Positions 275 through 30,494 of a DNA stretch of 64,000 bases are shown in pieces (the first letter of the stretch is position 1; every line of letters begins with the position of its first letter). This DNA comes from Sulfitobacter sediminilitoris (GTDB lineage: Bacteria; Pseudomonadota; Alphaproteobacteria; Rhodobacterales; Rhodobacteraceae). The notes under the pieces are model-generated. The model was not told the DNA's origin. It saw only the letters and a list, made by a program, of their open reading frames with translations, and did no database searches. Where the stretch lies: assembly GCF_010667575.1 (NCBI RefSeq), contig NZ_JAABNT010000013.1, positions 1-64,000 of the forward strand. The letters are read 5' to 3'. Both the position numbers and the translations under genes were made by a program.

Positions 275-943
275 TCACTCCACAACCGGGTAGTACGGTG
301 CGCCCCAGTTTTCTTCTGGGTTCGACATCATCGTGTCAACAAATACTGGCATCAGGCTTAGCAGCAACTCCGCCCCATCTCGGACCTGTTTACGATTGAC
401 TTGGCTGTTCCAAGTGGCTCCTCCATGAACCAGTTGGTTGCGCAAAACATACAGCCGGTCGAACAAGATGCTCAAGAGTTTTGCCGTCTCCTGGCCCTCA
501 ATCGCATATTGGGCTGCTTTCTTTGCGTTCTCGAGGCGAAGTTCCCAGTTTTCAAAGGTGGTGGAGCCGTTGTGGAACTTCCAGAACGGGCCGAAGATGT
601 ATTTGTTGTCGAGCAGATCCTTCACAACTCCCTCAAATTGATACCAGATTTCATGAGCAATGCGTCCCTTGATGTCACAACGGACCAATGCGTCAAAGAA
701 ATTTTGAAAATCAGTTCTAGCAAATGAGCCAGGGTCCTCACCCATGTCCTTCGCATAAGCCGCATTGAACGCAATCCATGCGAAGATGAACGCGCCATCC
801 GGATCGTCATCGACCAGTGCTGCTGCCCGATTCAGCCAGCTAATCGACCGATGAGTGCGCAGATTGAGTTCTGACGGGTTCTGCTCGCGAAGCTGCCGGT
901 GTTTGTCTTGTAGGTAGTCGAATTCTGAAGAGGTTCCAGCCAT
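275..943 (-). CDS. HEPN-motif protein, downstream partner of exonuclease I
   Basis: A 222-residue, mostly helical protein without a signal peptide or membrane segment. Near residues 165-175 it carries LRNQLVHGGATW, which fits the R-x4-H core of HEPN domains (RN-x3-H, with polar residues after the His). HEPN proteins are often metal-independent RNases in toxin-antitoxin, abortive-infection and CRISPR-associated systems. Some are only binding domains. The ATG lies two bases past the stop of the exonuclease I gene, so the two are almost certainly cotranscribed and probably translationally coupled. RNase activity is inferred from one motif. I do not recognise a named family. Confidence 0.7.
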   Translation of the reverse strand: MAGTSSEFDYLQDKHRQLREQNPSELNLRTHRSISWLNRAAALVDDDPDGAFIFAWIAFNAAYAKDMGEDPGSFARTDFQNFFDALVRCDIKGRIAHEIWYQFEGVVKDLLDNKYIFGPFWKFHNGSTTFENWELRLENAKKAAQYAIEGQETAKLLSILFDRLYVLRNQLVHGGATWNSQVNRKQVRDGAELLLSLMPVFVDTMMSNPEENWGAPYYPVVE

Positions 944-945
944 GT

Positions 946-2322
946 CTATCGTGCTCCCATCCGATCTGCCAAGAAACGCTCAATCTCGTCCAGCATTGCG
1001 GCATCATGGCTGGCTCCTGCTCTCAGTTCATCTAGCGCATTGCGTGCCTTGTTGAGGGTCATCCATTCCGTCTCGGGTTGATCCGGTGCATTCCAACGTT
1101 CTTGCAGCCAGTTTTTGTATTTGAGGCGCTCACCTTCAGACAAAAGGCCAGTGGCATAGAATGCAACCAATCGGTGGCCCAGCTGACGCAGGCGTGCATC
1201 CTCAAAGGAACTGACAATTTCCTGCCTGTGCCGCCAATCGGCGCCCTGAAATTCGTTCAAAAGTGCTTTGTCGGACCAATTGTAGAAACCACCAAATATG
1301 CGTTTTTCCACAGGAAGGAGGGTCGCGTCTGAAACCTGAGGGTACCGTGCCGCCATAACCTGAGCCAAACGTTCGCGAAACTGAGGGGCGTCTGCAAGTA
1401 TGCTTGCTCGGCGGGTCTGCTCCTCAGTTGCGGCGTGCGCTGTTAATAGGGCAGGGGACTTGTTAATTGAAACGGAGCGAATGATCCGTGGCGTTTCTTC
1501 CAGCCGGGCAGCCAGCATCTCTTCGTCAGCGGTGATCAGCTCTGAGGGGTCAGCTGCGTCGAGATCAAAGAAAAAAGCCTGATTGGGATTGCTACTCGAA
1601 TATCCGCATAAACACCCGATAGTGATTTGCGGTGGGCCACCGCCAAAACGACCTACCAATTCAAGTGGTTTGAAACTTTCCAGCAACGACTGAACAAGTC
1701 CCTTGTTCCGGCTGGACAGAAGCTCTTTCCAGAGATCAGGATCCAGTTCGGCGATCTTGCGGGCAATATGGATTGTGGCTTCGACGTCTCCGAGTGCGTC
1801 ATGAGCGTTGTGACCCTCGAAGCCATTGAGCGGTGCGAGGCGATCCAATTTGAAGCGCACCTTGCCAGCTTCATCGACTGGCCATTCAAATAAATCTGGG
1901 CGACAACACCACACAGCGTAAACGGCGGTCATGATGTCAAAGCGTGTATTGCCGTTGAACTGCGTTGCGAAGATGTCTGGTTGCAGGTTTTGATAAAATG
2001 CCTGTCGAAGCATCTCTTCGTCGAAACGAATGCTGTTGAACCCAGTCCAGATCACAGGTGACCAGCGCTTTACCAGCTCCGCCAGCGACTGTGTGAACTC
2101 AAAGAAATTGGGCAGGTTCTCGTCTAGCAGTTGCGCAGGGCGCAAGCCCGTCACGGCCAAAGCCTGCGGAGATGGGATGATATGGGGTGCTAAGCGGCAA
2201 CGCAAATTCACCCGCTCAATCTCATTGAATTCCGCATCCGTGAGGATCGCCGCAAATTGCATAGGGTGATCAAACGCGGGCGTTATTCCTGTAGTTTCGA
2301 GATCGTAAAATGCGAAATTCAT
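946..2322 (-). CDS. sbcB: Exodeoxyribonuclease I (SbcB/ExoI-type 3'-5' ssDNA exonuclease)
   Basis: A 458-residue DnaQ-fold (DEDD) exonuclease. Motif I is DLETTG at residues 7-12, followed by a segment closely like E. coli ExoI (PAFDHPMQFAAI, then LITG-like AVTGLRP). GFNSIRFDEEMLRQAFYQN near residue 95 is ExoI motif II, and AHDALGDVEAT near 173-183 supplies the His/Asp of motif III. The length matches ExoI (about 475 residues), so the SH3-like and C-terminal helical domains are probably present. ExoI digests single-stranded DNA from the 3' end in recombination and mismatch repair. It is not common in alphaproteobacteria. Here it sits in an island with a HEPN gene downstream and a divergent AAA ATPase, which suggests a system role and not housekeeping. 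Confidence 0.9.
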   Translation of the reverse strand: MNFAFYDLETTGITPAFDHPMQFAAILTDAEFNEIERVNLRCRLAPHIIPSPQALAVTGLRPAQLLDENLPNFFEFTQSLAELVKRWSPVIWTGFNSIRFDEEMLRQAFYQNLQPDIFATQFNGNTRFDIMTAVYAVWCCRPDLFEWPVDEAGKVRFKLDRLAPLNGFEGHNAHDALGDVEATIHIARKIAELDPDLWKELLSSRNKGLVQSLLESFKPLELVGRFGGGPPQITIGCLCGYSSSNPNQAFFFDLDAADPSELITADEEMLAARLEETPRIIRSVSINKSPALLTAHAATEEQTRRASILADAPQFRERLAQVMAARYPQVSDATLLPVEKRIFGGFYNWSDKALLNEFQGADWRHRQEIVSSFEDARLRQLGHRLVAFYATGLLSEGERLKYKNWLQERWNAPDQPETEWMTLNKARNALDELRAGASHDAAMLDEIERFLADRMGAR

Positions 2323-2388
2323 AAGCCTTCTTAAGCTTCCAGAGAGCGGGCGTCACGCAGAGATACTGTCCTTTCATAATCGACACGT

Positions 2389-2433
2389 CCGTATATGACG
2401 CATCGCGATATTATATCTGGTTCGTCAATACGG
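2389..2433. promoter_or_regulatory. Inverted repeat in the sbcB/AAA-ATPase divergent promoter, possible operator
   Basis: CCGTATATGACG (2389-2400) and CGTCAATACGG (2423-2433) are inverted copies differing by one base, with 22 bases of AT-rich DNA between them. The right arm abuts the ribosome binding site GGAGG of the ATPase gene (ATG at 2441). A factor bound here could control both divergent transcripts. The WYL protein encoded at 4577 is the obvious candidate, but that is inference. Confidence 0.4.
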
Positions 2434-2440
2434 AGGTTAC

Positions 2441-4477
2441 ATGACGAACAGATACGAACAGAGATATTTGATTGACTTGGCTCACAGGCTTGCCACGCGC
2501 TTTACGGCCCGCAGTGTTATGGCGCTGGAACTTTCAAGCTGGACTGAGGATCAAGATTTGGGGTTCTCTTGGGACACCGACTTCGACCGCTTCAAACGCA
2601 AGGGTGTGCCTGCTAAGGTTTGGAAAGATCTGCGTGCCCACCTCGCGTATCAGTTTGCACGAACACCACGCGTCCGACCCGATGCTCTTGCCCGCAACAT
2701 CTCGGCGCTGGCAGCGCATATGGGACTTGGAAAGAATGAAGAGGAAATCTTCGCCCTGGCAATTCGCGCAGCTCGTAGCGGACCGGTCAAATCTCTGTGC
2801 TCAGCATTAACAGATGAGGCCCGGATTCCAGTCGAAGACGCTGTTGTTCATCTGACTGGGCTCTCACCTGCGCAGGTGCGAAAAGCTTTGTCCAACTCAG
2901 GACGACTGATGGTCTCTGGTCTACTGCAATTTGAAAGACCTCCGTTTACTGGGCTTGGCCTTTTACCTTCCGATCGCTTGCTGGTGGCACTTGAGCCGCC
3001 TTCCCGTGGGCTTGAGGACATTCTGGGCATGCTCTTTGCCACGACCGAACCGGCATCGGTCACCTGGGAAGACTTCGGTCATCTGGGACAGGGCCGGGAC
3101 TTCGCATTCCGGTTGCTACAGGGTGGACTAAAGCGGCAGGAAAAGGGCGTGAACATTCTGCTTCATGGTGCGCCGGGGACGGGAAAAACTGAGCTTTGCA
3201 AAGTGCTCGCTGAAAGGCTTGGCGCAAGTCTCCACGCTGTTGGTGAAACAGACGATGATGGCGAAGAGCCGACACGGTTTGAGAGGTTACAGCAACTGCG
3301 TCTCGGTCAACGGCTACTCGGTGATCAAGGCAACAGCATCATCCTGTTCGACGAGATGGAAGACCTGTTCCCTGGGCTCGACAATGGGCTCTTCGGAGTC
3401 TCGTTGCGTCGGTCTGGCTCAAAGGTCCATACCAACCGCCTAATTGAGGGCAACCCTGTGCCGACCCTCTGGACGACAAACAACATCAGCGACTGCGATC
3501 CAGCGTTTCTGCGTCGGATCAGCTTTACGCTGGAGTTGCGTACACCCCCGGTCGCTGTTCGTGCCAGGGTATGGCAAAAACTCGCAAGGCAGCATCAGGT
3601 GCCACTGTCCCAAGACCTGTGTTTCGAATTGGCACACAGCATGGAGGATGCACCGGCACTGGCCAACAGCGCCCTTCGCGCGGTGCGCATCGCTCGTGGC
3701 GGAACAGATGACGTGAGACTGGCTGCAACCGCCATTTCTCGGGCTGTACGTGGGGGCCATACTCCGTTGATCTCGCACAGCGCTGTTCATTTTGATCCGG
3801 AACTGGCGAATGCAGACCATGACCTCAGCTTGATCACGCAGCGTTTCGTCACTTGCGGTCCAGCCGATACAGGTGGACTTTGCCTCAGTGGACCGCCTGG
3901 GACCGGCAAGAGCGCCTTCGCACGCTACCTTGCAGAATGTTTGCACATGCCTGTCCTCGAGCGGCGTGCCTCTGACCTGCTCGATCGTTATGTCGGGGGA
4001 AGCGAACGCAACATTGCAGATGCCTTTGCAGAAGCGCGTGACACCAGCGCCTTTCTTGTATTCGACGAAGCGGACTCGCTGCTTGGCTCCCGCAATGGCG
4101 CCTCTCATCGCTGGGAAATCTCACAAGTGAATGAAATGCTCACTTGGATGGAGAACCACCCTCTACCTTTTGCTTGCACCACAAATCTTGTTGATCAGCT
4201 GGACCCTGCCACAGCACGGCGCTTCAGCCTGCGGATCGGTTTTCTGCCGCTGAATCTCAAGCAGCGCCAAGCCTGTTTTCGGCGGTTCTTCCATGCTGAT
4301 CCGCCTGTGGGACTCCAATTGCTTGACCAGTTAACGCCCGGAGATTTCGCAGTCGTGGCCAAGCGGTGCACTTTGCTGGGCATAACAGAGCCTGCGGTTA
4401 TCGTGAACGAGCTGACCCGGGAACAAACGTCCAAACCAAACGCAAACAATCCAATCGGATTCCGAGCAGTGAGTTAA
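2441..4477 (+). CDS. Twin AAA-module ATPase (SpoVK/COG0464-like)
   Basis: A 678-residue cytoplasmic protein with two AAA modules. Module 1 has Walker A GAPGTGKTE near residue 242 and Walker B ILFDEMEDLFPG near 303. Module 2 has Walker A GPPGTGKSA near 483, Walker B FLVFDEADSLLG near 538, a sensor-type segment ACTTNLVDQLD, and an arginine pair (ATARRFSLRI) fitting the second region of homology. The N-terminal 220 residues are helical and unassigned. Such proteins form hexamers that remodel proteins or DNA complexes. Start: ATG preceded by GGAGG four bases away. It is divergent from sbcB and 99 bases upstream of the WYL gene. The target is unknown. I read it as the motor of a defence or repair module. 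Confidence 0.8.
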   Translation: MTNRYEQRYLIDLAHRLATRFTARSVMALELSSWTEDQDLGFSWDTDFDRFKRKGVPAKVWKDLRAHLAYQFARTPRVRPDALARNISALAAHMGLGKNEEEIFALAIRAARSGPVKSLCSALTDEARIPVEDAVVHLTGLSPAQVRKALSNSGRLMVSGLLQFERPPFTGLGLLPSDRLLVALEPPSRGLEDILGMLFATTEPASVTWEDFGHLGQGRDFAFRLLQGGLKRQEKGVNILLHGAPGTGKTELCKVLAERLGASLHAVGETDDDGEEPTRFERLQQLRLGQRLLGDQGNSIILFDEMEDLFPGLDNGLFGVSLRRSGSKVHTNRLIEGNPVPTLWTTNNISDCDPAFLRRISFTLELRTPPVAVRARVWQKLARQHQVPLSQDLCFELAHSMEDAPALANSALRAVRIARGGTDDVRLAATAISRAVRGGHTPLISHSAVHFDPELANADHDLSLITQRFVTCGPADTGGLCLSGPPGTGKSAFARYLAECLHMPVLERRASDLLDRYVGGSERNIADAFAEARDTSAFLVFDEADSLLGSRNGASHRWEISQVNEMLTWMENHPLPFACTTNLVDQLDPATARRFSLRIGFLPLNLKQRQACFRRFFHADPPVGLQLLDQLTPGDFAVVAKRCTLLGITEPAVIVNELTREQTSKPNANNPIGFRAVS

Positions 4478-4576
4478 TGGGGCGGGGACCAACACGACAA
4501 AGCGGTCTCTCACCGCGGCCATTCGCTTGAAGCCTTGATCGGTTTGCGCAAGACTGTTCAAAACGGAGTTTTCCCA

Positions 4577-5566
4577 ATGCGGTATGGCCGACTGACAGAC
4601 CTGGTCCGTTTGGCGCTGCAGATGCAGGGCAGGGCGGATGGTCTGTCACTGGATGATATCGGGGAAAGCTATGAGGTTTCGCGCAGAACAGCTGAACGAA
4701 TGCGTGATGCGCTCAGAGATGCCTTTCCACAAATTGAGGAGATCAGCGAGCCGGGGGGTCGCAAACGTTGGCGGCTTCCACCTGGGACAACGGGCCGACT
4801 GGCTGATCCCACCATCGACGATATTGCAACGCTGCATCGGGGGGCTGAACTGGCGCGTCAAAGCGGAGATACCGCAACAGCAGATAACCTCGACACGCTG
4901 TCAGACCGGTTGCGAGCCCGTTTGCCGGGCCCTAAGCGAACACGGCTTGAGCCAGATATTGCAGCACTGCTCGAAGCAGATGGGGTTGCACTGCGCCCGG
5001 GTCCCCGAGAGCGTATTCCTGAAGAAACACTCAACCACCTACGGCAAGCTATACTTGCTGGTGTCTGGATCACTGTGGATCACCGTGCCCGGGCAACGGG
5101 ATTATTGAGCCGGAACGCACGGCTTGGTCCATTAGCGATGTTGCTTGGTGAAGGACGCCAGTATCTCGTTGCTTATAGTGACTGGGCCAAAGATATTCAC
5201 CTGTTCGCTCTGGCAGGCTTTGAGCGTATCGAATTGTCCAATGAGAGCTTTGAACGCCCTGCAGATTTTGATCTGCAAGCCTGGATCCAGCGGTCGTTTG
5301 GGGTCTGGCAGGCAGAACCTTATGACGTGATCTGGCGTTTTTCACCGGAGGCTGCGCCAGATGCGCGAACATACCTGTTCCATGCTACCCAAGAGATGAA
5401 GGATGAACCCGATGGGAGCTTGACCGTGCGGTTTCGTGCGGGTGGGCTCAAAGAGATGTGTTGGCATTTGTTTCGATGGGGGGATCAGGTGGAGGTCCTT
5501 GAGCCTCAAGCCCTCCGGAAATTAGTAGTTGAACAAGTGGAACTATTGAATCAACATTATGTGTAA
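4577..5566 (+). CDS. WYL-domain transcriptional regulator with N-terminal HTH
   Basis: A 329-residue protein. Residues 1-60 form a DeoR/HTH_11-like winged helix (LSLDDIGESYEVSRRTAERMRDAL), and residues 150-310 form a WYL ligand-sensing domain with a WCX-type C-terminal part. I chose the ATG at 4577 (MRYGRLTDL) over the longer frame because CGGAG lies eight bases upstream. WYL regulators are frequent in defence islands, where they repress systems such as BREX or CBASS until DNA fragments or other phage signals appear. Here it follows the AAA ATPase and could act on the inverted repeat at 2389-2433. The ligand is not known. Confidence 0.85.
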   Translation: MRYGRLTDLVRLALQMQGRADGLSLDDIGESYEVSRRTAERMRDALRDAFPQIEEISEPGGRKRWRLPPGTTGRLADPTIDDIATLHRGAELARQSGDTATADNLDTLSDRLRARLPGPKRTRLEPDIAALLEADGVALRPGPRERIPEETLNHLRQAILAGVWITVDHRARATGLLSRNARLGPLAMLLGEGRQYLVAYSDWAKDIHLFALAGFERIELSNESFERPADFDLQAWIQRSFGVWQAEPYDVIWRFSPEAAPDARTYLFHATQEMKDEPDGSLTVRFRAGGLKEMCWHLFRWGDQVEVLEPQALRKLVVEQVELLNQHYV

Positions 5567-5623
5567 GCCGACTTGGTTGAAACTGAGAAATTCTAATTTC
5601 TTGCAAAGGATGAAGAACTTTGA

Positions 5624-6203
5624 ACGATCTATCGTATGCGTCCGAGCATCTGCCAATTTATATCTGATGCCTTTTATGATGGTCGTCTAACAGCCCATGA
5701 AAGTACCTCCGAGCGCAGTCTGAACCTGCAAGGCGTTGACCTGCCGAGTGAAGGGATTGTTATGATCTCGGCTGAGCATGAAGGATGCTCACAGAAAAAC
5801 GTGGAAGAAGGTGAGATCATTAAAGCCGAATATGGTGGCTTGCTCGGCCAAGAGTTCACCGACCATGATGGCACCACACCCCCGATCACCGAAGACGATA
5901 TTCTGGTGGTCACCTCATATTAATGTGCAGGTGAATTATCTGCGCTCGATCCTGCAGGACAATGCCAAGGTTGGCACTGTTGATAAGTTCCAAAGGCAAG
6001 AAGCACCCATCGTGTTGATTTCCATGGTGATATCCAGCGCCGAAGACCTGACGCGCAATATTGAGTTTCTTTTCAGCAAGAACCGTCTGAATGTTGCCGT
6101 CTCACGCGCACAATTTTTGGCGGTGGTGATTGCCAATCCCAAGCTGCTGGAAATCCCCTGCAGCACTGTGGAACAGATGAAGCTGGTCAATACATTCTGC
6201 TGA
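5624..6203 (+). pseudogene. C-terminal remnant of a superfamily 1 helicase (Upf1/AAA_12 type), frameshifted
   Basis: Two frames together read as the last part of an SF1B helicase. Frame 1 (from about 5624, YRMRPSICQFISDAFYDGRL, to 5923) contains EHEGCSQKN and DDILVVTSY. Frame 2 (from about 5925 to the TGA at 6203) contains VQVNYLRSILQDNAKVGTVDKFQRQEAPIV and FLFSKNRLNVAVSRA. In intact relatives VVTPYNVQVN is continuous; here TCATATTAATGTG carries one extra T near 5920-5921. The rest of the helicase, including Walker A, is missing. The family is often fused to a TM0106/RecB-like nuclease. The remnant precedes mcrB and is not expected to function. Confidence 0.85.
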
Positions 6204-6238
6204 CTGGATGAATATGTTGATAGAAAAAAGAGGAAAAA

Positions 6239-7882
6239 ATGAAAAGCCGACTAAAGAATCTTTACAAATACTTGATTGAGAACCGGAAACACGAAGTCAA
6301 AGGCTGGTATGATGCCTATCGTGAGTTTTACGGTCAGGTCGAACAGATCCGTAAACGTATCAAATCAGGAGAAGACTTATCTCAAACTGATGAGGCTTTC
6401 CTGAAGCAGCTCCTCTATGAAAAAAGTAACGGGATCGCTTCTCGCGGCCAGTCTGTTTTAAGCAACGAAAACTTTCAGGCTTTCATCAAAAACAAGGATT
6501 TTATATCCGCGCTAGGAGAATTCATTCAGACCCCCAACAAGGACAACTTCCAGAAATTTAACGATGCGTGGTCTGACCAAGGCAAGTCCAACAATCCGGT
6601 TCTTGTCAATCGTGTGGCGGCAGCCTGCACGCTCGAAGTCTCCGCTACTGTTGATTCCGGTAAGTTTAATCAGGTCTTCAGCTGGCTTATTCGTGAAGGA
6701 ATTATCCCGGCATATCCGGCCAAAGAGGATCAAGATTGGTATTCAAAAAACATTTTCCTAATGAAGATCATCAAAGATGAGTTCAGAGATGAGCTTCAGT
6801 ACAAAAAAACGGATGAGTTTTATCTGAGCCAGTTTGTCTGGATGCTGTATGAAAACCTTTCCAATCCATTCAGCCTAAAAAAGCAGATTGTTAAATACGG
6901 TGCTCCTGGAACAGGGAAAACATATCAAGCTCGCCAGCAGACCTCGCTGCTGTTTGATATCTGGAAAGAGGAGTTTGCTCCAAACAGCGCACTCACACAT
7001 GCAAGCCAGATTGACCTAGTGCAATTTCATCCTTCTTTTAGTTATGAGGACTTCATGGAAGGCTTGCGCCCAGTTCTGGACTGTAATGGAACCGCGCAGC
7101 TGACGTTGCAAAATGGTGTTTTCAAGGAGTTTTGCAGAAACGCTGGAAAGTGGGAAATTGATGTTTTTAGTCTTGGTCTCGATCGGGACTGGGAATCAAT
7201 TACGATCGATGAGCTTCATTCCCATAGAAAAAAATTATCAGGTGATCATTGGCAGTACATCTTCAAAATATCAGACACATCAAAGCTGGTATCCGATGCT
7301 GTGCCTCCATTCTTCTTTATCATCGATGAAGTGAACCGGGCTGAGTTGTCTCGAGTTTTTGGTGAGCTGATGTATTGCCTAGAATATCGAGGCATTAAAG
7401 GAAGGATCAAAACCCAGTATGCCAATTTGAATAACGAAGGCACTGGCATGCTTCAAACCGATCAGGGATACCTATTTTTCATCCCAACAAATATATATCT
7501 GATTGGCACCATGAATACCATTGACCGGAGTGTGGAAAGCTTTGATTTCGCTCTCCGACGTAGATTCCGCTGGGAAGAATTAACGCCGGATACAGGGCTG
7601 TTGAGATACCATTTGACCCAGTTCTGCAAAACCTGGGTCCCTCTGGCGGATGACCTTGAACGGCTGAACACCCAGATAGCCAAGGAACCTTTGCTGGGCC
7701 ATGATTACCAAATCGGTCATGCCTATTTGATGAACTTGAAGTATGCCACCAGCCTTACGGTTGCGGAAGTAAGAGAGCGTGTCTGGGATGATTACATCCG
7801 GCCTTTGCTGCAGGAATACCTACGCGGTACCGGTAAGGAATCTGAGCTCATCAATTCTTTCGGAAAGGAATTCGGGGTTTAA
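6239..7882 (+). CDS. mcrB: McrB-like AAA+ GTPase of a type IV restriction system
   Basis: A 547-residue protein. The N-terminal 200 residues are lysine-rich and helical and probably hold the DNA-recognition region; I recognise no named domain there. The AAA+ core has Walker A GAPGTGKTY near residue 221, Walker B FFFIIDEVNRAELSRVFGEL near 357, and MNTIDRS near 424. That last motif corresponds to the McrB MNTADRS signature linked to GTP use, with Ile for Ala. An arginine-rich FALRRRFRW motif follows near 437. McrB rings translocate DNA and activate McrC to cut modified DNA. The ATG follows an AAGAGGAAAAA ribosome site. Codons are AT-richer than in flanking genes, suggesting separate acquisition. 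McrC starts three bases after the stop. Confidence 0.92.
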   Translation: MKSRLKNLYKYLIENRKHEVKGWYDAYREFYGQVEQIRKRIKSGEDLSQTDEAFLKQLLYEKSNGIASRGQSVLSNENFQAFIKNKDFISALGEFIQTPNKDNFQKFNDAWSDQGKSNNPVLVNRVAAACTLEVSATVDSGKFNQVFSWLIREGIIPAYPAKEDQDWYSKNIFLMKIIKDEFRDELQYKKTDEFYLSQFVWMLYENLSNPFSLKKQIVKYGAPGTGKTYQARQQTSLLFDIWKEEFAPNSALTHASQIDLVQFHPSFSYEDFMEGLRPVLDCNGTAQLTLQNGVFKEFCRNAGKWEIDVFSLGLDRDWESITIDELHSHRKKLSGDHWQYIFKISDTSKLVSDAVPPFFFIIDEVNRAELSRVFGELMYCLEYRGIKGRIKTQYANLNNEGTGMLQTDQGYLFFIPTNIYLIGTMNTIDRSVESFDFALRRRFRWEELTPDTGLLRYHLTQFCKTWVPLADDLERLNTQIAKEPLLGHDYQIGHAYLMNLKYATSLTVAEVRERVWDDYIRPLLQEYLRGTGKESELINSFGKEFGV

Positions 7883-7885
7883 ATC

Positions 7886-9331: not shown

Positions 9332-9344
9332 TTGTGCCGTTATC

Positions 9345-9488
9345 AACCCAAGAGGCATCGCCAAGTTGTTCAGTTTTGCTGAGTTGGCTATAGAGTGGCG
9401 AGCCGAGCAGACCCTGAAACAGCGAGAGGAGATCAAACGCAAAACCAATCTCAAGCGGCGCTTGCGCCACCAAACTGAAAACGCATAA
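9345..9488 (+). pseudogene. Unidentified gene tail between mcrC and the RecB-like gene
   Basis: A 47-codon open frame without a start reads NPRGIAKLFSFAELAIEWRA and then a lysine/arginine-rich helix before TAA. Composition and codon choice look protein-like, but the family is not recognised and no start codon with a ribosome site precedes it. It is probably the C-terminal remnant of a gene lost when the mcrBC cassette was inserted. It could be chance. Confidence 0.25.
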
Positions 9489-9544
9489 ACTCAATCATGG
9501 ATGAGCCAGAGCCTCCAAACGAAAGGACGCTCAACTGTCCCAAA

Positions 9545-12500
9545 TTATCTGACGACGGACACTTCAACTGAACAATCATCAATCCAGTGTATGGAGACGC
9601 TCGGGTGGCTGAAACCCTTTTGCTGGACCAAAACGTCTTGGTATGCTTTTAGCTGCGCTATGTAATCGGCAAAACTCCCTGAACCACTCTTATGATCAAG
9701 GATCAGACACTTGTCTGGACCTCTAGCGAGTAGATCGATCATCCCGTTAAACTCGGCACCGGAAGGTTTGCGCTTTTGGATCGGCACCTCGCAGTCAATT
9801 TGTGTGTAGCCCTCCGCTGTCAGCCAGCTTCGTAGAGCCTTCGCCTGCTCCTGCAATGCATCCAGCATGGATTGATCAAAGCCAGTCGCACTTGCGAGAC
9901 GGGAACGCAGATCAGGCCGCATTAAAAGAACACGGAACGCTTTATGCAGGGCCGTGCCTCTATCAGTGGCCGTCCCTTCCATCGCGATCGATTGTGGTGG
10001 GACGTCCAGTTTAATGAGACGTGTTCTGACTTCGCTTGCGACTTTGGGCTCGATCAGCGACGGGCGAACACGCCATGGCGTCACTGCTGTTTCAAGCAAT
10101 GGGCGCGGCTGTCCAAATGCCAGTCGTCCTTGTTCTTCTGACTGCGAAAGCACTGGCAATTCCGGAGACTCAGAACTGCAGATCAAGGTCCTGGCTGGAA
10201 AGCTTGCGTCTCGAAGCGACAAATAACCCGCTTCAGGCTCGAGCCCAGCTTCCAACACGAGCATTTCGGCGTGATTTGCAGGCCCTTCGCTTTCCCCAAG
10301 CTTCTTCAGGCCAAACTCCGGCCATTCGAGGATTAGACGATCCCGTGCTCTCGTCAGAGCCACATAAAGGAGCCGCCGCGCATCAGCCTCAGAGGCTTCG
10401 CGGCGATCTGCCAAGAAGATTTCTTTCTTTTCCTTAATTGGAAGATCAGGTGTCCAGATGAGCTTTGCATGTTCGAGGATGGTTCCAAGGTCACTAAAAT
10501 TGGTGAACTCGGCCCTGAGCGTTCCCGGTCGCTCACCAATCTTGGCATCAAGTCCGACGATTGCAGTGATTGGCCACTCCCGCCCCTTTGAAGCGTGCCA
10601 GGTCACGATCTCGACGCCTTGCTCCTGGCTTTGGCCGGGATCAGGATGACGGTCGAAATCCCGTTCGTCACGGCGAGCCTCAAGCCAACCAAGAAATACC
10701 TGTGCGCTTGCGCCGTGGAACCCTGCAGCGGCCTTGAAGTCCCGATGCGCAGAAACAAAATCCGTGATTTCTGCCTGGAATCGCATGAGATCAGCATGCA
10801 ATTGAGCCGCATCTGGATGCGCCGCTGCCCACTCCAGTATGCCGGCTGCTTCTAGCACCTTGGGTAGCAATGCCTCGAGCGGCATCTCGGGAGCAGCTTT
10901 GGCCAATTCCAGCAAATCAGCAAGTTCTGCACAGGCCTCCAATTCACCATCTGCAAGCGCTGTCATTGCCTGCTGAAGCGGTATGGATGCAGGGCCTAGC
11001 GTCAGCAGCGCTAGCGCAGCATGCCGATCAGTTGGATCCACCGCAAAACTGAGCGCGTTGCGTGCGGCCATTACGGCAGGTGAGTCCAACCAGCCCGGAG
11101 CATTGATCCGCACTGGAATACCCTGTCGTTTGAGCGCGCTGGCATAGCGTGCTGCCATGGAATGTGTCGGGCAGAGCAGGGCGATGTCACGTGGTTCCAC
11201 TGGCCTGAATACCGGAACCTTGGGGTCGCCTTCCCGTTCTACGATGGGACCACGTTCCGCAAGAAGATCAGCGACACGGGCCGCGACATGATCTTCAGGT
11301 CGAGATTTCTTTGACCGCCGACCTTCAGGTATGCGCAGGACCTCAGCAAAGGTCTGACCGGTCTCCGGGCGTTGTGGGTCTAGGGCAACATAGCCATCGC
11401 CAAATAATCCCTGCGAGATGGCGTTGACCATCTTCATCAAGCGTGGGTCAGAGCGCCAGTTGCCGGTTAGAGGAGAAGCCGCATCTGGATTCTGCTTTTC
11501 AAGCGCTTGGCTCAATCTGGGGTCGGCCCCCTGGAAGCCCATGATGGACTGCTTTGTGTCCCCCACGATCAGTACGCGTTTCGCGGACTGGGCAATTCGC
11601 CAGAGCAGCGCAAACTGAACTGGGTTTGTGTCCTGAAATTCGTCAATGATGACGCAATCGATCTCAGAGAGCAGTGCCTCCAGAATCTCCGGGCGTGTCC
11701 GAAGTAAGCGCTCGGCATCACAGATCATATCCGCATAATCGATGACGCCAGCTTCACGTTTCATGTCCGCATATTTGGACATGACTTCCTGTGCGCCATG
11801 CACCAGCGCTTCCAGATGCGCGCACGCATCGTCCAGCGGCCCAGGATGTATCGCAATGTCGGAGGCTGCGGCTATGACCTCACTTGAGAGATCGTCATAA
11901 CCTTCTGGTGTTGGTGAGCCGCGTTTCGTTTGACGCAATTCGCTCAGCGCCTTCCAGAGCTTCCAATCACGGCTGAGTTCACCCGTTCGCAATGCACGCT
12001 TTAGGAGCCTGAAATCCTTCGCAAAGGCTTTTCTTGCTGCGTCCGAAGTCGCGTGTGGTGTCAAATCATTCGGAAAGGCTCCAATTAAAGCTTCGATCGC
12101 ACTTGTAAGGCGCGCTTCAAGAGGAGCGGGATCGCTCGCGACTTCGCCGTAAAGATCGCGCAGCCGTTCAACAGCTGTTTTCGCCAGCTTGGGATCATTG
12201 CCGCTGTCTCCGAGGCCTCTGAGGAGATCGATTGTGCTGAGGACCTTGCCTCGAAAGCTGTCTTCTAGGCTCGCGTTTGAGACAAAACTGGACCTGTAAC
12301 CAAAGCGAGGTAAATCAGCCTTCACTGCATCAAGGCTCGTTGCGTGCGCCATTGCCTGACGGATCAACAAGTCGCGCTCGGCTTCAGCCAATGCCCGCGG
12401 CTGTGGGGATGCCCCCGCTGCAAATGCGTGTTCGGAAAGGACGCGCAAGCCAAGCCCATGGATTGTGGACACGTAGGCCTGTTCAACAGCAAGCGCCTGT

Positions 12501-12697
12501 TCCACCAAACCTTCACTTATAAGGCTCGAGCGGATTCTCCCCCGCAACTCAGCGGCTGCAGCCTCAGTAAAGGTAACGGCCAGAATCCGCTCGGGGCTGA
12601 CAAGTTTGTCTTTTACCCACTTCGTTAGGTCCGACTTGATCCTGAATGTCTTGCCCGATCCGGCACCGGCAGGAACGATGGTTAGCATCTCAGTCAT
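9545..12697 (-). CDS. UvrD/RecB-like helicase-nuclease (AddA-like)
   Basis: A 1050-residue superfamily 1A helicase fused to a nuclease. Seen: Walker A PAGAGSGKT (residues 9-17), motif Ia VTFTEAAAAELRGR, VSTIHGLGLRVL, motif II IIDEFQDTNPVQF near 352, motif III VGDTKQSIMGFQGAD, NWRSDPRL, motif V VTWHASKGREWP, and motif VI LLYVALTRARDRL. The C-terminus has a RecB-family nuclease core (GMIDLLARG, then LILDHKSGSG, near 985-1005). This matches AddA, which resects double-strand breaks with AddB. It overlaps the AddB-like gene upstream by eight bases and is probably translated with it. The island location suggests a second, defence- or element-linked AddAB-type complex; the usual chromosomal addAB would be elsewhere. 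Confidence 0.88.
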   Translation of the reverse strand: MTEMLTIVPAGAGSGKTFRIKSDLTKWVKDKLVSPERILAVTFTEAAAAELRGRIRSSLISEGLVEQALAVEQAYVSTIHGLGLRVLSEHAFAAGASPQPRALAEAERDLLIRQAMAHATSLDAVKADLPRFGYRSSFVSNASLEDSFRGKVLSTIDLLRGLGDSGNDPKLAKTAVERLRDLYGEVASDPAPLEARLTSAIEALIGAFPNDLTPHATSDAARKAFAKDFRLLKRALRTGELSRDWKLWKALSELRQTKRGSPTPEGYDDLSSEVIAAASDIAIHPGPLDDACAHLEALVHGAQEVMSKYADMKREAGVIDYADMICDAERLLRTRPEILEALLSEIDCVIIDEFQDTNPVQFALLWRIAQSAKRVLIVGDTKQSIMGFQGADPRLSQALEKQNPDAASPLTGNWRSDPRLMKMVNAISQGLFGDGYVALDPQRPETGQTFAEVLRIPEGRRSKKSRPEDHVAARVADLLAERGPIVEREGDPKVPVFRPVEPRDIALLCPTHSMAARYASALKRQGIPVRINAPGWLDSPAVMAARNALSFAVDPTDRHAALALLTLGPASIPLQQAMTALADGELEACAELADLLELAKAAPEMPLEALLPKVLEAAGILEWAAAHPDAAQLHADLMRFQAEITDFVSAHRDFKAAAGFHGASAQVFLGWLEARRDERDFDRHPDPGQSQEQGVEIVTWHASKGREWPITAIVGLDAKIGERPGTLRAEFTNFSDLGTILEHAKLIWTPDLPIKEKKEIFLADRREASEADARRLLYVALTRARDRLILEWPEFGLKKLGESEGPANHAEMLVLEAGLEPEAGYLSLRDASFPARTLICSSESPELPVLSQSEEQGRLAFGQPRPLLETAVTPWRVRPSLIEPKVASEVRTRLIKLDVPPQSIAMEGTATDRGTALHKAFRVLLMRPDLRSRLASATGFDQSMLDALQEQAKALRSWLTAEGYTQIDCEVPIQKRKPSGAEFNGMIDLLARGPDKCLILDHKSGSGSFADYIAQLKAYQDVLVQQKGFSHPSVSIHWIDDCSVEVSVVR

Positions 12698-15365
12698 CGA
12701 GGTCCTCCAGGTCCTCTATTTGATCTGTAGCTGGCATCATGAAGCGGGCGATCAGAGGCGAGGCATCAAGCGCATAGGGCGCAAGATTTGCAGTCTTTTC
12801 AAAAAACTTTCGATCATCTTCGGTATTGAGGCGAATGAGTCCCTCGCCGATCTCTTGGAGACGTGTGTCGAGCATGCTCATGGCCTGTCCGGAGATATCC
12901 CCCTGCATCACGGTTACGACCCCGTCAGGTGGTTCCAGTCCCTCCAAAAGGACACCCTGATCATTTATGAGGTGGTAAGCGACACCAATTGCAGGGTTCC
13001 CCGCCAATGCATCTTCGAGCACAGGATCGGTTTTTTCCGAGTGCATAAGCATTGCACGGTAAAGCCCGAGCTGTAGATCCCATCCTGCTTCCAGCCGAGC
13101 ACGCCGCTTTGGTGTGCCACTTTTCTTGTGGTCGACCACAAGCAGGCTGCCACCTGCCAGTTGCAGCAGGCAGTCAGCGCGTCCTCGCAATCGGATATCA
13201 AACGCAGTGCCGCGGAGATCGATCTCATTGTCGATCACAGAAGCACCAAGGCCTTCGAGCGTGTCGCGCCAGGCATGAGCAGCATTGCGGATGTCGCGCG
13301 CAAGCCCTTCACGTTCCACTGCCCAAATTGATCGCTGTAGAAATGGCGCGTATCTCTGTATCGCTGCCGTGAGCAACTTGGGCACCGAAGCGTCAATTTT
13401 TGCGTGGTCCGGAAGTGGCGCGTCTCTTGGAAACAGAAATTCCAATACATCGTGCGCTATCGTGCCCGCGACCATGATATTAAGCCCTTCGGGAGCCCAG
13501 GTTATGGGTTCTGCACCGAACTCTGAAAGGCTCCATGCCAGAGGACTGACTAGAAGCGTCTCAAGCCTGCTTGGAGATTGTGGGCGCATTCGACCATCGT
13601 CTGTCAACTGTCTGCGCAGGAGATCACGGTCGAGATGAAGAGCACCGTCTTCTGGCAAGGATTGTGCTTTAGTGTCCGCTGCCACGAACCGATGTGCAAA
13701 AGGCCAACGCTCCGCTGAGATCGAGCGTAGATCATGGATCAGGGTTTCCTCATCCTCGGGGTCATTGGCCTCATCTCCAATTGTGCGGGCGACCAGCGAA
13801 AGGGCTGCTGCAGGCGGTTGACGGCTCCCGTTTGCCGCAAAAACAGGGCGCAGTAGGGTCAGTGTCTCGGAACCACATAAGAACTGGCGGCGCAGCTTCT
13901 CCAGCCGCCGAGCAAGTGCATCACCACGTGTCTCGACATTTAACCCTGTCTTTTTGCGTAGAAGCTGAAGTTCACCATCAAGAAAAAGCGGCGATGCAGA
14001 AACTGTGCGTGGCCAACGATTGCCGCTCATCCCAAGAGCAATCAGATGTCGTGCTGGTCGCCATGGCATGGCCGTCTCAGTGAACACGCTCACACCTTCA
14101 ACAAAGGGGTCTGAGGATGTCGGCTTGGCTGAGCCTGGGGTTGCTATGCGAAAGAGGCCGGTCCAGTCCAGTGTACCGCTCTGTGAGAGTACGCCGCGGA
14201 CCGCAGTGAGTTTTGAACGAAACTGAGTGATGTCATCGCGCAGCTCCGGGGAATCGTTTAAATTCTGAGCGGCTTGCTCGAGCGCCTCCAGAATTCCGGA
14301 TGGTGTTTGGGAAAGATTGCTCCGAAGGAGCGCATAAAGTCGCTTCGCACGCCCGGTCAGCGCGGAGGCCACATAGGGATCAAACCGGCCCTGCATCACC
14401 TCGCGCGCAAGCTGCAGCCCGGTTGTTGCGGGCCATGGCATGAGGGGTGAGATGTAAAGGCTCGCGAGTGCCATGGCAGGCGCCGGGCTTTGCAGGCACA
14501 GGAGAAGGTGCAGCAAGGTTTCCCCGGCGATATCCCGACGAACTGGTAAATCCGGCAGACCGGAAATCGGTAAACCCAGCGTATCAAAGGCTCGTCGAAG
14601 CTGTGCGAAATATCCAATCTCATCTGGTACAAGTATGGCGATCTCATGAGGCGCTACGCCCTCGTCGATCAGCCGCTGTGCACGGGCAGCGGCAAAATCT
14701 GCCTCTTCCGCTTCATCGCGAAGTGCAAAGAAACTCAAGCTCTCATCAAGGGGTGCTGGCGCAATATCAGCACCGGTTAATCCTTGCTGAACCCGCCAAA
14801 GACTTGTCTTTTCCTCTGCACCAGTCAGTAGGGGCGACCTGCGCATCACCCATTCTTGCTGGAAGGCTTCGCTGGCAAGCCCATGATGCTCCAGCAGATG
14901 GGCATGAAGACTGCGCTCTATTGGGGAAGCAAAGGTACAAGGCTCTGCAGTGACCAAAGGCAGGGGTTCGAGCGCGTCAGTCGCTGTACTGCGCAAAACA
15001 TGGGCGTACACCTGAAGATCCTCGGAAAGGGCAGCAGGTGACTGCCGCCAGAGATCGCATAGGGCTGCGAGATGCCGGTAAAGTCGGCTGTCTTGATCCA
15101 GACCTGACAGGTCGACCTCATCTGGCGAAAGGCTCTTTGTTGCCATAGCGAGAGATCGGAGAGCCGAAAACACGGCCGTGGCCGTTTCCATCGGTGCAAC
15201 TGCCATACTGGCAGACCAAGGCTGCCCGTCCACAGACAAAACCGCGTTTAGATCGAACGCCTCAGCGCGAGGGGAAAGATACGTCTCGGCCAGAAGATCT
15301 GAAGTGATCGTACGGAAAGCGCCCGTCTCAGAATGGACTGTTACAAACGTATCAAGTCCATTCAT
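12690..15365 (-). CDS. PD-(D/E)xK nuclease family protein, AddB-like partner
   Basis: An 891-residue protein with an inactive-looking helicase-like N-terminal half and a C-terminal RecB-type nuclease. Nuclease residues are visible near 745-760 as GRADCLLQL, LLVVDHKKSG and, after a spacer, QLGLYRAM. No complete Walker A motif was seen, as expected for many AddB-like subunits. I chose the ATG at 15365 (MNGLDTF) and not the longer frame because AAGGAGGTG lies five bases upstream, an almost perfect ribosome site. Its stop overlaps the start of the AddA-like gene. The pair probably forms one helicase-nuclease complex. It is divergent from the phosphatase/ADP-ribosylglycohydrolase fusion at 15612. 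Confidence 0.82.
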   Translation of the reverse strand: MNGLDTFVTVHSETGAFRTITSDLLAETYLSPRAEAFDLNAVLSVDGQPWSASMAVAPMETATAVFSALRSLAMATKSLSPDEVDLSGLDQDSRLYRHLAALCDLWRQSPAALSEDLQVYAHVLRSTATDALEPLPLVTAEPCTFASPIERSLHAHLLEHHGLASEAFQQEWVMRRSPLLTGAEEKTSLWRVQQGLTGADIAPAPLDESLSFFALRDEAEEADFAAARAQRLIDEGVAPHEIAILVPDEIGYFAQLRRAFDTLGLPISGLPDLPVRRDIAGETLLHLLLCLQSPAPAMALASLYISPLMPWPATTGLQLAREVMQGRFDPYVASALTGRAKRLYALLRSNLSQTPSGILEALEQAAQNLNDSPELRDDITQFRSKLTAVRGVLSQSGTLDWTGLFRIATPGSAKPTSSDPFVEGVSVFTETAMPWRPARHLIALGMSGNRWPRTVSASPLFLDGELQLLRKKTGLNVETRGDALARRLEKLRRQFLCGSETLTLLRPVFAANGSRQPPAAALSLVARTIGDEANDPEDEETLIHDLRSISAERWPFAHRFVAADTKAQSLPEDGALHLDRDLLRRQLTDDGRMRPQSPSRLETLLVSPLAWSLSEFGAEPITWAPEGLNIMVAGTIAHDVLEFLFPRDAPLPDHAKIDASVPKLLTAAIQRYAPFLQRSIWAVEREGLARDIRNAAHAWRDTLEGLGASVIDNEIDLRGTAFDIRLRGRADCLLQLAGGSLLVVDHKKSGTPKRRARLEAGWDLQLGLYRAMLMHSEKTDPVLEDALAGNPAIGVAYHLINDQGVLLEGLEPPDGVVTVMQGDISGQAMSMLDTRLQEIGEGLIRLNTEDDRKFFEKTANLAPYALDASPLIARFMMPATDQIEDLEDLDD

Positions 15366-15611
15366 CTGCACCTCCTTGCCAGACATGTCGCTGGCTAACT
15401 TTTCTCTAAGGAGCGGGTTGCATGATGCGGTACTTTTCAAGTCCCATCACTATCCTGACCTTCTAAGCGATGCGTGGATCGCAGCCCCTGTTTGAGACAA
15501 AGCTTGCTCTAAACCATCGCGTGTTACAACCCATACTCAGAACGGGTGCGTCCGAAAGTGACGTGTGAAAATTCTATAGTGATCACGAATCGAAGAGAAA
15601 AGGAGACCCGT

Positions 15612-17180
15612 TTGGTTCGAACCAGTCATACCCACCCCCTCCGCATTGATGCTCTGCCGCTTGCAAACGGACAGCTAGGCATCACTTTTTGCCCTGGGAA
15701 GAAGGGCGACAGCGTTTATGGCGCAGCTTGGGATCGAGATCTCGAACTCGACATCGACGCGATCAAGGCTTGGGGTGCCAGCGCCGTCCTGACCCTTCTT
15801 GAGGATCATGAATTCGAGATGCTTTCGGTGACAAATATTGGCGATGCACTCAAAGCTCGTGGCATCGAATGGTTTCAGTTCCCTATCAGGGATGTGGATG
15901 TACCGACGCCGGAAGCGATGGAGCAATGGCGAGCGGTGTCGCCAAAACTGCATCAAATCATGGAACACGGCGGCCGAGTGGTCGTCCATTGTCGAGGTGG
16001 TCTGGGTCGGGCAGGCACGATTTCAGCATTGATGCTCGTTGAGCGAGGTCGATCTGCGCACGATGCCATCAGTGACATACGGTCTGTGCGGCCTGGCGCG
16101 ATAGAGACCTCTGAACAAGCGAGCTGGCTCATAAAGCATGCGCGCCATCACGACCTGCCCGGCATTCGCCTTCATGCCAGCCTGATCGGAGGGGCCATCG
16201 GCGACAGTTTGGGCGCGGACATCGAGTTTCTGTCGCTGGATCAGATCCGTCGGCGTTTCCCAGAAGGGATTACGGACTTGCCGCCCCATCAGGGACTGCG
16301 GGGCGCGATCACTGATGACACACAGATGACCCTGTTCACAGCTGAAGGCATTATTCGAGCTTATGTTCGCGGCGCACTCAAAGGCATCAGCCACCCACCA
16401 TCTGTTGTGCATCACGCCCTTCTACGCTGGCTACGGACTCAAGGTGGCAAGCCGCGTGTCGAAACGGATGATGTTGGCCTGATTACGGATCGTCGCCTTT
16501 GGGCACGCCGGGCCCCGGGCCTCACCTGCATGTCGGCCCTTGAGCAGAGCGCGCACTTTGGAGTTCCTGCAGAGAACAACAGTAAAGGCTGTGGTACGAT
16601 CATGCGGGTGGCGCCGGTTGCTTTGATGGTTTCTCGTGACCGGGTGCAATCGATAGCGTTGGAAACTTCTGCTCTAACCCACGGACATCCCACAGGACAG
16701 ATCGCTGCGGCGGCTTGGGCTGAGATGTTGGCTGACGTGTCGATGGGCGCAGACCTTGAAGAGAGTGCAACACAAATCGCTGACACCTATGCCCACATGA
16801 AAGATGGGGAAGAGACCGTTCAGGCGATACGAAATGCTCTTGAGGCCCCCCGGGATGGAAGGGCTGAAAGCGTCGAGTCACTCGGTGGCGGCTGGGTTGC
16901 CGAGGAGGCGCTGGCAATTGCGCTCTATGCATGTCTTGCCGGCAAATCTTTCGATGAGGGCCTCCAGATCGCTGTTTTGCATGGAGGAGATAGCGACTCT
17001 ACAGGTGCAATCGCTGGAAACATGCTCGGTCTCATCGATCCTGCGGCGGCGCTTAAACATCCGTGGGCAAGCGCTATAGAAGGCGCGGACATCATCACGC
17101 ATTTGGTACACGACTACCTTTGCCTCGAGCATGAGAGTGGCAGCGCTGAAGAACTTTGGAATGCTTATCCGGGAACCTGA
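15612..17180 (+). CDS. CX5R phosphatase / ADP-ribosylglycohydrolase fusion
   Basis: A 522-residue two-domain protein. Residues 1-175 form a dual-specificity/tyrosine-phosphatase-like domain with the catalytic P-loop VVHCRGGLGRAGT near 125 (Cys and Arg present). Residues 185-520 form an ADP-ribosylglycohydrolase (DraG/ARH) domain with GGAIGDSLGAD, the metal-binding DDTQMT near 235, and HGGDSDSTGAIAGN near 457. I chose the TTG at 15612 because AAAAGGAG precedes it and the phosphatase homology starts just after; an ATG at 15546 is possible. The fusion could remove phosphate or ADP-ribose marks from a target. Being divergent from the nuclease pair, it may reset or protect against that system. The substrate is unknown. 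Confidence 0.85.
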   Translation: MVRTSHTHPLRIDALPLANGQLGITFCPGKKGDSVYGAAWDRDLELDIDAIKAWGASAVLTLLEDHEFEMLSVTNIGDALKARGIEWFQFPIRDVDVPTPEAMEQWRAVSPKLHQIMEHGGRVVVHCRGGLGRAGTISALMLVERGRSAHDAISDIRSVRPGAIETSEQASWLIKHARHHDLPGIRLHASLIGGAIGDSLGADIEFLSLDQIRRRFPEGITDLPPHQGLRGAITDDTQMTLFTAEGIIRAYVRGALKGISHPPSVVHHALLRWLRTQGGKPRVETDDVGLITDRRLWARRAPGLTCMSALEQSAHFGVPAENNSKGCGTIMRVAPVALMVSRDRVQSIALETSALTHGHPTGQIAAAAWAEMLADVSMGADLEESATQIADTYAHMKDGEETVQAIRNALEAPRDGRAESVESLGGGWVAEEALAIALYACLAGKSFDEGLQIAVLHGGDSDSTGAIAGNMLGLIDPAAALKHPWASAIEGADIITHLVHDYLCLEHESGSAEELWNAYPGT

Positions 17181-17237
17181 ATGGTGGTTCGAATTAAAAT
17201 GGAAATTCGACTTTTGACAAATGAGGAGCCACCAAAC

Positions 17238-17831
17238 ATGAGCAAAACCGATAGGCGTGCAGTAGATCGGATCATGTACTGTCATGGATTCGCATCAAAC
17301 TTTGATCCCCAAAAGGATAAGGTTCAGGCATTATCAATGCTTGCTCAGGTTCAGGGCGTCACGGTCGATTATACGTCTCCGCCAGAAAAAGTCTTTGAGG
17401 CGTTCGCAGCAGAGTTAAGCGGATCAACTAGAACGCTGCTCATTGGAACAAGTATGGGTGGGTTCTTTGCAGCCTGGCTAGGCAGTGCCTTCAACTTGCC
17501 GTTCATCGCAATCAATCCAGCTGTGTCGCCTGCAACCTCACTGCAAAAATATCTTGGGCGAGGGCAGACCCATTTTGGGACGCCCTACGACCTAAAGAAC
17601 GACGTCGTTCAAGCGTATGAAGAACTGCAGTTCCGACTTGATGGACCTGGTGAAATTGTCCTTGATCTGGGAGATGAGGTGATCGATGCGCGGGACACTT
17701 TGGCCATGGTTGCTAAAAGGCTCCTTGTAACGACGTTTGAGGGCGGTTCTCATCGTTTCGATCATATGTCCGAACTGGTGACGATCCTCGCCGCGAAATT
17801 TGATTTCAAAGTGCCAAGCCCCGAGGCCTAA
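17238..17831 (+). CDS. YqiA/YcfP-like alpha/beta-hydrolase
   Basis: A 197-residue single-domain hydrolase. It shows an N-terminal YCHGFASNFD strand-loop, a nucleophile elbow GTSMGG (Ser), an Asp in DLGDEVID and a C-terminal His in GSHRFDH, a full Ser-Asp-His triad in the order of the UPF0227 (YqiA/YcfP) esterase family. I chose the ATG at 17238 because GAGGAG lies nine bases upstream; the in-frame ATG at 17181 has no ribosome site and overlaps the preceding stop region. It follows the phosphatase fusion by 57 bases on the same strand and is probably cotranscribed. The family is linked to esterase activity on small acyl esters. The role here is unknown. Confidence 0.75.
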   Translation: MSKTDRRAVDRIMYCHGFASNFDPQKDKVQALSMLAQVQGVTVDYTSPPEKVFEAFAAELSGSTRTLLIGTSMGGFFAAWLGSAFNLPFIAINPAVSPATSLQKYLGRGQTHFGTPYDLKNDVVQAYEELQFRLDGPGEIVLDLGDEVIDARDTLAMVAKRLLVTTFEGGSHRFDHMSELVTILAAKFDFKVPSPEA

Positions 17832-25866: not shown

Positions 25867-26022
25867 ATGGATAAAGATGAACACTTACAACGCCACCTGG
25901 ACCTCTGCCAAAGGGTGTTTCAACGCATGTTGGCCGAACGTTCCTGGCCATGGAAAGAAGATGTGGATTCGACAGAACCCAAGGATGTGATAGAATCCGG
26001 GGATATCTCTAATGACGTATGA
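25867..26022 (+). CDS. Small protein coupled to a serine recombinase
   Basis: 51 residues from the ATG at 25867 (MDKDEHLQRHLDLCQRVFQR), with SWPWKED and VIESGDISNDV after. An earlier ATG (25819) is possible; neither has a strong ribosome site. Its TGA overlaps the recombinase start as ATGA, so translation is coupled. Small acidic proteins with a conserved WPW motif precede many serine recombinases in proteobacterial islands. A role as accessory factor is inference. Confidence 0.65.
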   Translation: MDKDEHLQRHLDLCQRVFQRMLAERSWPWKEDVDSTEPKDVIESGDISNDV

Positions 26023-30436: not shown

Positions 30437-30494
30437 AATGACCTTTCGCTAAATGAATCTGTGTTGATAAGGCCAAAGACGAACCTCTGTGCGC

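Follow-up and report, generated by a model that had tools for sequence, protein, structure and literature searches.

RecBCD/AddAB is usually viewed as a host repair enzyme that harms phage DNA as well and is inhibited by phages. Azaca (ZacABC) is a validated defence system, and to our knowledge no AddAB-like pair forms part of known McrBC. Here we describe a locus of Sulfitobacter sediminilitoris in which two genes resembling addA and addB adjoin mcrBC, within a stretch of 64,000 nucleotides (the window) that is the start of contig C5 (NZ_JAABNT010000013.1) in a 4.86-Mb genome of 99 contigs. We put at roughly 0.5 the probability that this is an anti-phage locus, in which exchangeable modules would be arranged round a second, defence-dedicated AddAB-like helicase-nuclease. 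Sequence comparison sets the pair apart from the repair AddAB and shows that its ATPase site and both of its nuclease sites are preserved; related pairs are accompanied by WYL, twin-AAA and PTP-ADPRH genes. If the reading is correct, a mobile second AddAB tied to restriction systems would give cells an additional, interchangeable enzyme that destroys DNA ends in immunity, which would account for the constant neighbours of Azaca-like, McrBC and other genes. The genes of the locus are:

275-943, minus strand: HEPN-like protein, 222 amino acids (aa), RX4H motif R168-H173, 2 bp behind the ExoI gene; a movable accessory gene
946-2322, minus strand: exonuclease I-like protein (ExoI, SbcB) of the defence-associated RTasSbcB type (PF08411, 66.9 bits; PADLOC RTasSbcB, 502 bits)
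2441-4477, plus strand: twin-AAA ATPase with two AAA stretches (Pfam) and both Walker A motifs intact (GAPGTGKT, GPPGTGKS)
4535-5566, plus strand: regulator with WYL and WCX domains (Pfam/PADLOC)
5633-6215, plus strand: what is left of the C-terminal end of a RecB-like nuclease/helicase of the TM0106 family, broken over two frames (about 195 of 1098 aa), just before mcrB
6239-7882, plus strand: McrB (AAA_5)
7886-9331, plus strand: McrC (PF10117, 95 bits)
9545-12697, minus strand: AddA-like helicase-nuclease (UvrD, 169 bits; PDDEXK_1)
12690-15440, minus strand: AddB-like nuclease (PDDEXK_1, 60.6 bits)
15546-17180, plus strand: fusion of a phosphatase (PTP, HCX5R; PTP-SAK, 46.9 bits) and an ADP-ribosylglycohydrolase (ADPRH, 219.7 bits), divergent from AddB
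17181-17831, plus strand: UPF0227/YqiA-like alpha/beta hydrolase, esterase-like (Pfam)
18263-19060, plus strand: metallophosphoesterase-like protein (metallophosphatase; Pfam), with relatives near AddB-AddA

An open reading frame check of 275-17831 found every gene named by an earlier sequence-only reading of this DNA to be open and placed where that reading had put it, and the Pfam and PADLOC domain calls agree with its names, the HEPN call being the weakest. The TM0106 remnant and the metallophosphatase were absent from its gene list. The motif names that we use for the AddA, AddB, AAA, PTP and ADPRH active sites are those we take to apply. The PTP (HCRGGLGR) and ADPRH (TDDT, GGDSDS) motifs of the fusion appear intact, and the ExoI and AAA genes diverge from a common region of 118 bp. 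The metallophosphatase has relatives close to AddB-AddA in G482 and L022, both belonging to the same clade of the AddA tree, and a fragment near AddB in G471; the UPF0227/YqiA-like hydrolase was not found in the other mapped stretches.

Like AddAB, RecBCD and AdnAB, the locus has an AddA-like UvrD and PD-(D/E)XK protein, an AddB-like protein whose low-confidence structural model best matches AddB chains, and the order addB-addA; unlike them, the window pair is a second copy, very divergent, patchy in its distribution and surrounded by defence neighbours. McrB with AAA_5 and McrC with PF10117 together identify the neighbouring genes as McrBC type IV restriction, of which an AddAB-like pair is not known to be a component. 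Azaca and PDC-M27 are linked to the pair in relatives: two loci (L023, G769) have ZacABC after AddB-AddA and nine have a remotely related trio, whereas no Zac or trio gene was found at window positions 1-23000, and the window AddAB, AAA, WYL and ADPRH proteins have no Zac match among the PADLOC matches listed (for AddA, the best 25 of 53). The twin-AAA protein matches IetA of IetAS, an AAA plus subtilisin system (88 bits, PADLOC), but reaches only 82 bits against an NCBI cut-off of 510, and no subtilisin was found among the scanned neighbours. The ExoI resembles the SbcB associated with DRT reverse transcriptases, and two ExoI relatives adjoin a Drt1a-type reverse transcriptase gene; none was found among the Pfam-scanned neighbours at 275-22552, the left of 275 lying beyond the contig.

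ARMADA, arrays of YprA helicases, is likewise a multi-gene, helicase-based defence array in the part of its description available to us (PMC12458937); we rejected identity with it, as its YprA-like helicase, so far as that part describes it, was absent from the genes at 275-17831 that were scanned. At the level of gene content, the locus differs from Azaca, ARMADA and IetAS in the components that define them; by analogy it would function most like an end degrader of RecBCD/AddAB type coupled to restriction, and is best regarded as a variant of that kind. No description of the arrangement was found in the accessible portions of the literature searched, including PMC12458937, PMC12839542, PMC11090510, PMC12948488 and PMC12278908, a weak negative with most subscription papers outside coverage.

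Identity of the AddAB-like pair

The sequence-only reading had held that its proposal would fall if the pair were the organism's only addAB. Because a canonical addB-addA pair (935 and 1194 bits, both above the NCBIfam cut-offs of addB_alphas and addA_alphas) sits on contig C12, the window pair is not the genome's repair addAB. We rejected it for that role also on its weak matches to the same models: the AddA-like protein scores 135.5 bits over its whole length (58 in the best stretch) against a cut-off of 861, and the AddB-like protein 28.8 bits against 486.5.

In the window AddB comes first and overlaps AddA by 8 bp. The AddA-like protein combines an SF1 UvrD helicase with a C-terminal PD-(D/E)XK nuclease, which places it in the AddAB family in the broad sense, and its sites are intact (Walker A AGSGKT, Walker B DEFQDT, motif VI, nuclease DHK). 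In the AddB-like protein H663, E739, D756 and D770-x-K772 are invariant in 25 of 25 aligned relatives. A search of its sequence against the PDB returned two chance-level matches only. The five best PDB matches of its AlphaFold model are all AddB chains (3u4q_B, E 4.5e-15); the protein appears AddB-like in predicted fold, with the caveat of a low-confidence model (pLDDT 62, pTM 0.40).

At least 32 loci carry both genes, always B before A, and the two overlap or lie at most 5 bp apart in 29 of 31 measured loci; the exceptions (L014, L025) have AddB in pieces. This AddB set is not random: it joins a plasmid search, a genome scan (among the matches listed), a family sample of 394 genomes from 393 genera and one IMG/VR contig, and omits an AddB fragment (G621, among the 14 AddB genomes of the family sample) and an AddB remnant with HEPN (L087). 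For the AddB set, a class sample of 385 genomes gave a good match in the window's own genome only, with two further weak partial matches.

Within 10 kb of the pair lie WYL in 18 of the 32 loci (a fragment in G471), AAA in 11 (that of L159 taken from the overlapping locus L170), ADPRH in 8 and HEPN in 6. The count omits the ADPRH of G728, which lies on a different contig, next to the start of an AddB gene (L154). As far as these alignments and gene maps reach, the AddB-AddA pair is a fixed core around which WYL, AAA, the PTP/ADPRH fusion and HEPN recur. Upstream of HEPN-AddB-AddA in Vannielia litorea (L022, 6380-8599) lies a protein of 739 aa with a remote ADPRH domain (28% identity) and a different N-terminal part; it was not counted as ADPRH.

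Genes that recur around the pair

AAA-WYL and ADPRH-AddB-AddA had been proposed to be halves of one system split by mcrBC. The run AAA-WYL-ADPRH-AddB-AddA occurs without mcrBC in four loci (G733, G687, L009 and, in Amaricoccus, L023), in the same order and strand and tightly packed; the AddA proteins of G733 and L009 are 94% alike. L010 has HEPN between ADPRH and AddB in an otherwise joined run, and an IMG/VR contig (L159/L170) reads AAA-WYL-ADPRH-trio-AddB-AddA. Among these, plasmids of Leisingera, where the AAA gene is annotated as two adjacent open reading frames, and of Fuscovulum carry AAA-WYL-ADPRH-AddB-AddA (with HEPN before AddB in Fuscovulum) followed by three more genes. Since joined runs without mcrBC exist, mcrBC is not needed between the halves. 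WYL lies at most 600 bp from AAA in 17 of 21 mapped AAA loci, and in two more it is near by annotation (one gene on in L015, adjacent in L017).

In the family sample, with each gene family counted at its own E limit, AddB was found in 14 genomes, AAA in 10 and the ADPRH fusion in 12, and AddB and AAA together in 3. With the window's own genome left out (n=393) and genomes treated as independent, AddB and ADPRH share 5 genomes against 0.36 expected (P 7e-6), AAA and ADPRH 3 against 0.25 (P 0.001), and AddB and AAA 2 against 0.30 (P 0.03). Because most AAA genomes (7 of 10 lack AddB) and most AddB genomes (11 of 14 lack AAA) have one without the other, the parts appear to be linkable modules, and the locus, on this distribution, is a kit of movable modules and not one fixed system. 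The idea of one system thus keeps the joined runs, interrupted only by inserts in L010 and L159/L170, and loses its obligate character; independence of the halves in most genomes, which the sequence-only reading had itself named as telling against it, is half borne out by the same counts. Its mark-removing role for the ADPRH protein is still a guess; the fusion also stands away from AddAB (L151-L153, L155, L092).

The HEPN-like protein scores 15.5 bits in Pfam, where the cut-off is 28.4. All 13 aligned relatives keep the RX4H motif unchanged, several of them are annotated 'HEPN domain-containing', and the AlphaFold model of the window's protein is all-helical (pLDDT 82.6). Since that model has no match at E 0.001 or better in a PDB fold search, the HEPN fold is unproven. 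The plasmid search gave 25 records with HEPN-like genes and 11 with AddB, 6 of the 11 having both on one replicon. HEPN is the direct neighbour of AddB or AddA in L010, L022 and L088, is separated from AddB by 1.4 kb in L090 and stands beside the AddB remnant of Thioclava (L087); elsewhere it adjoins WYL, TM0106, ADPRH or AAA (L009, L078, L080, L094, L160-L162) or lies 6 kb off (L093).

Restriction-type neighbours and the competing readings

A restriction-type neighbour stands close to the pair in 16 of the 32 loci: an Azaca/PDC-M27-like trio in nine (G733, G687, L009, L010, L011, L020, L089, L091, L159), Azaca directly after AddB-AddA in two (L023, with 380, 528 and 1032 bits for ZacABC; G769, by similarity), McrBC in four (the window, G390, L024, G471) and SbcDC in one (G766). 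Three neighbours were not counted: ZacA/ZacB 11 kb past AddA in G766, a helicase piece of 146 aa like PDC-M27C upstream of AddB in L014, and, in L088, a DUF262 gene that is the second gene past AddA. On an AddA tree of 29 rows, which form 21 clusters at 90% AddA identity (one with six rows), the different kinds of partner are scattered. The McrB proteins beside AddB-AddA fall into three divergent lineages (the window's, that of G390, and that of L024 and G471), and in Agrobacterium rubi (L024) 40 aa of the trio's first protein are left between AddA and McrB, likely the trace of a partner swap. Because restriction-type modules adjoin half of the loci and are scattered on the AddA tree, mcrBC may here be a partner and not an intruder. 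Two records from Agrobacterium have a ThsB-like TIR gene adjoining WYL-AddB-AddA (L013, 9763-10473, 374 bits; L024, 3181-3948, by clustering).

The trio is a three-gene set absent from catalogues, with proteins of about 404-443, 600-688 and 846-885 aa (the last a helicase), found for example at:

L009, 22518-25998
L045, 11684-17701
L089, 15696-21249
L017, 14811-20573

In the two of the nine trios that were scored with PADLOC (L089, G687), the first protein has no match, the second about 31 bits to ZacB and the third, with PDC-M27C as its top match, about 70 bits; an AAA-WYL-trio locus of Pantoea gives the same picture. A Rhodoferax operon with AAA and WYL and without AddAB holds a true PDC-M27 (605, 805, 1288 bits) in the same layout. 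The trio looks like a sister of Azaca and PDC-M27, and we call it Azaca/PDC-M27-like because its PADLOC similarity to them is remote only.

The view of mcrBC as a mere splitter fares poorly, given McrBC beside AddB-AddA in three other loci and a remnant-mcrB-mcrC order that matches sets elsewhere. An operon of TM0106 RecB-like nuclease/helicase, McrB and McrC, divergent from WYL-HEPN, occurs in L197 (5206-13024, minus strand) and L094; Leisingera has a McrC-McrB-TM0106 set, divergent from WYL-HEPN, in the neighbourhood, and in Aminobacter WYL pieces and HEPN accompany TM0106-McrB-McrC. No description of this operon was found in the literature searched. As a decayed TM0106 end precedes mcrB in the window, its mcrBC may have arrived as such a set.

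Under the anti-phage reading, foreign DNA would be cut or opened by a partner nuclease, most likely McrBC in this locus and Azaca, the trio or SbcDC in relatives, and the AddAB-like pair would load on the resulting ends and degrade from them. The WYL protein may govern expression, the twin-AAA ATPase may gate or remodel the complex, and PTP-ADPRH could reverse a phosphate or ADP-ribose mark and so reset a modification-based signal. The HEPN protein might serve as a back-up RNase, cleaving RNA if the attack on DNA fails, and ExoI, a local extra, could clear single strands. We propose tentatively, at odds a little short of even, that the pair, often with its own WYL, is a plug-in finisher joined in turn to Azaca, the trio, three McrBC lineages and SbcDC. 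Once such a front end had opened the DNA, its destruction would not depend on the host's Chi-restrained AddAB; TM0106, nuclease and helicase in one chain, would with McrBC, WYL and HEPN be the one-chain version.

Several observations weigh against the anti-phage reading, besides the separate occurrence of AAA, AddB and the fusion noted above. Of the 16 loci in which no partner was recognised, the sequence downstream is shorter than 2 kb in 6 and longer in 10; in L018 two genes further along encode an aminotransferase and a transporter. The window's AddA and McrC are convergent and not one operon, its McrB is only 29% like that of G390, and its closest AddA kin (G482) has no mcrBC in a contig of 13 kb. 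The trio is only remotely tied to known systems. Among 37 family genomes, 9 have McrC, a frequency at which uniform scatter would rarely place it beside an AddAB locus; this is a weak control, and because McrC is found in these genomes, clustering in defence islands can explain some of the adjacency.

An ordinary defence island, in which McrBC, the AddAB-like pair, ExoI-HEPN, AAA-WYL and DISARM share a neighbourhood and work separately, is the likeliest alternative, though we hold it unlikely. Each of AAA, AddB and ADPRH is found on its own in many genomes, there is a Class 1 DISARM at 30495-42734 and the ExoI relatives sit in other contexts, all as an island would predict; the recurrent tight run of fixed order and strand, and an AddB-ADPRH co-occurrence far above chance, are not. 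Distinctly improbable is a role of the pair in plasmid-borne repair, recombination or plasmid establishment instead of defence. AddAB is a repair family, 7 of the 11 AddB plasmid records are typed conjugative and the Fuscovulum copy lies about 14 kb from repA, which would suit such a role, but one copy lies on a 3.9-Mb contig (G696), and the pair keeps company with WYL and with Azaca, Azaca-like, McrBC or BREX genes.

Exonuclease I and the rest of the window

Returning to the anti-phage reading, ExoI is probably a local addition and not part of the core. Its score against the NCBI exodeoxyribonuclease I model is 237 bits, below the cut-off of 260. A relative occurs in 31 of 394 family genomes (E 1e-20), a figure that bears on the sequence-only reading's remark that ExoI is rare in alphaproteobacteria. 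None was found in the examined stretches of the 31 other AddB-AddA loci, three of which are shorter than 6 kb, and AddB and ExoI share 2 genomes against 0.99 expected (P 0.26), not over chance.

Besides the window's, we mapped the neighbourhoods of 19 ExoI genes: 4 are on plasmids, and 15 are genome stretches that come from 12 genomes (three stretches from G766, two from G618) out of 30 others with a match. A RecD2-type helicase is present in 7 (identified by domain scores in one and by similarity in the others), BREX brxC in 4 and a Drt1a-cluster reverse transcriptase in 2 (one scored), and all 4 plasmids have HTH and ImmA genes. Core membership of ExoI, claimed by the sequence-only reading, was rejected: AAA and HEPN occur in none of the 19, an AddA-like gene in one (L084) and a WYL fragment in one (L143). 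In the neighbourhood with the AddA-like gene, on a Rhizobium anhuiense plasmid, some 4 kb separate a distant ExoI (32% identity) and a PD-(D/E)XK/UvrD pair whose UvrD gene matches AddA and whose PD-(D/E)XK gene has no AddB match at E 1e-10. That plasmid and the joined relatives without mcrBC speak for a single obligate complex of AddAB-like pair, ExoI, AAA switch and ADPRH later split by mcrBC, which the missing ExoI at the other loci and its chance-level co-occurrence with AddB make very improbable. ExoI stands upstream of BREX operons in four loci (L137, L138, L145, L147), and in three of them it diverges from the gene of a RecD2-type helicase, which has an SNase or Fic gene with it; from this gene order, ExoI-RecD2 looks like another module.

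Further along the window, four genes together constitute a Class 1 DISARM operon, separate from the AddAB-like locus:

30495-32333, minus strand: drmB
32327-35824, minus strand: drmA
35821-39762, minus strand: drmMI
39759-42734, minus strand: drmD

The DISARM stretch (29429-42734, minus strand) also encodes a separate HATPase protein of 335 aa that resembles the N-terminal part of the long DrmA model (41 bits), and DISARM adjoins a tRNA-Cys at 43290-43363. A TrwB/HerA-like ATPase (22791-24071, plus strand) resembles PADLOC mads_8 (57 bits). The large serine recombinase at 26019-27560 (plus strand), with Resolvase and Recombinase domains, is possibly the mover of the island.

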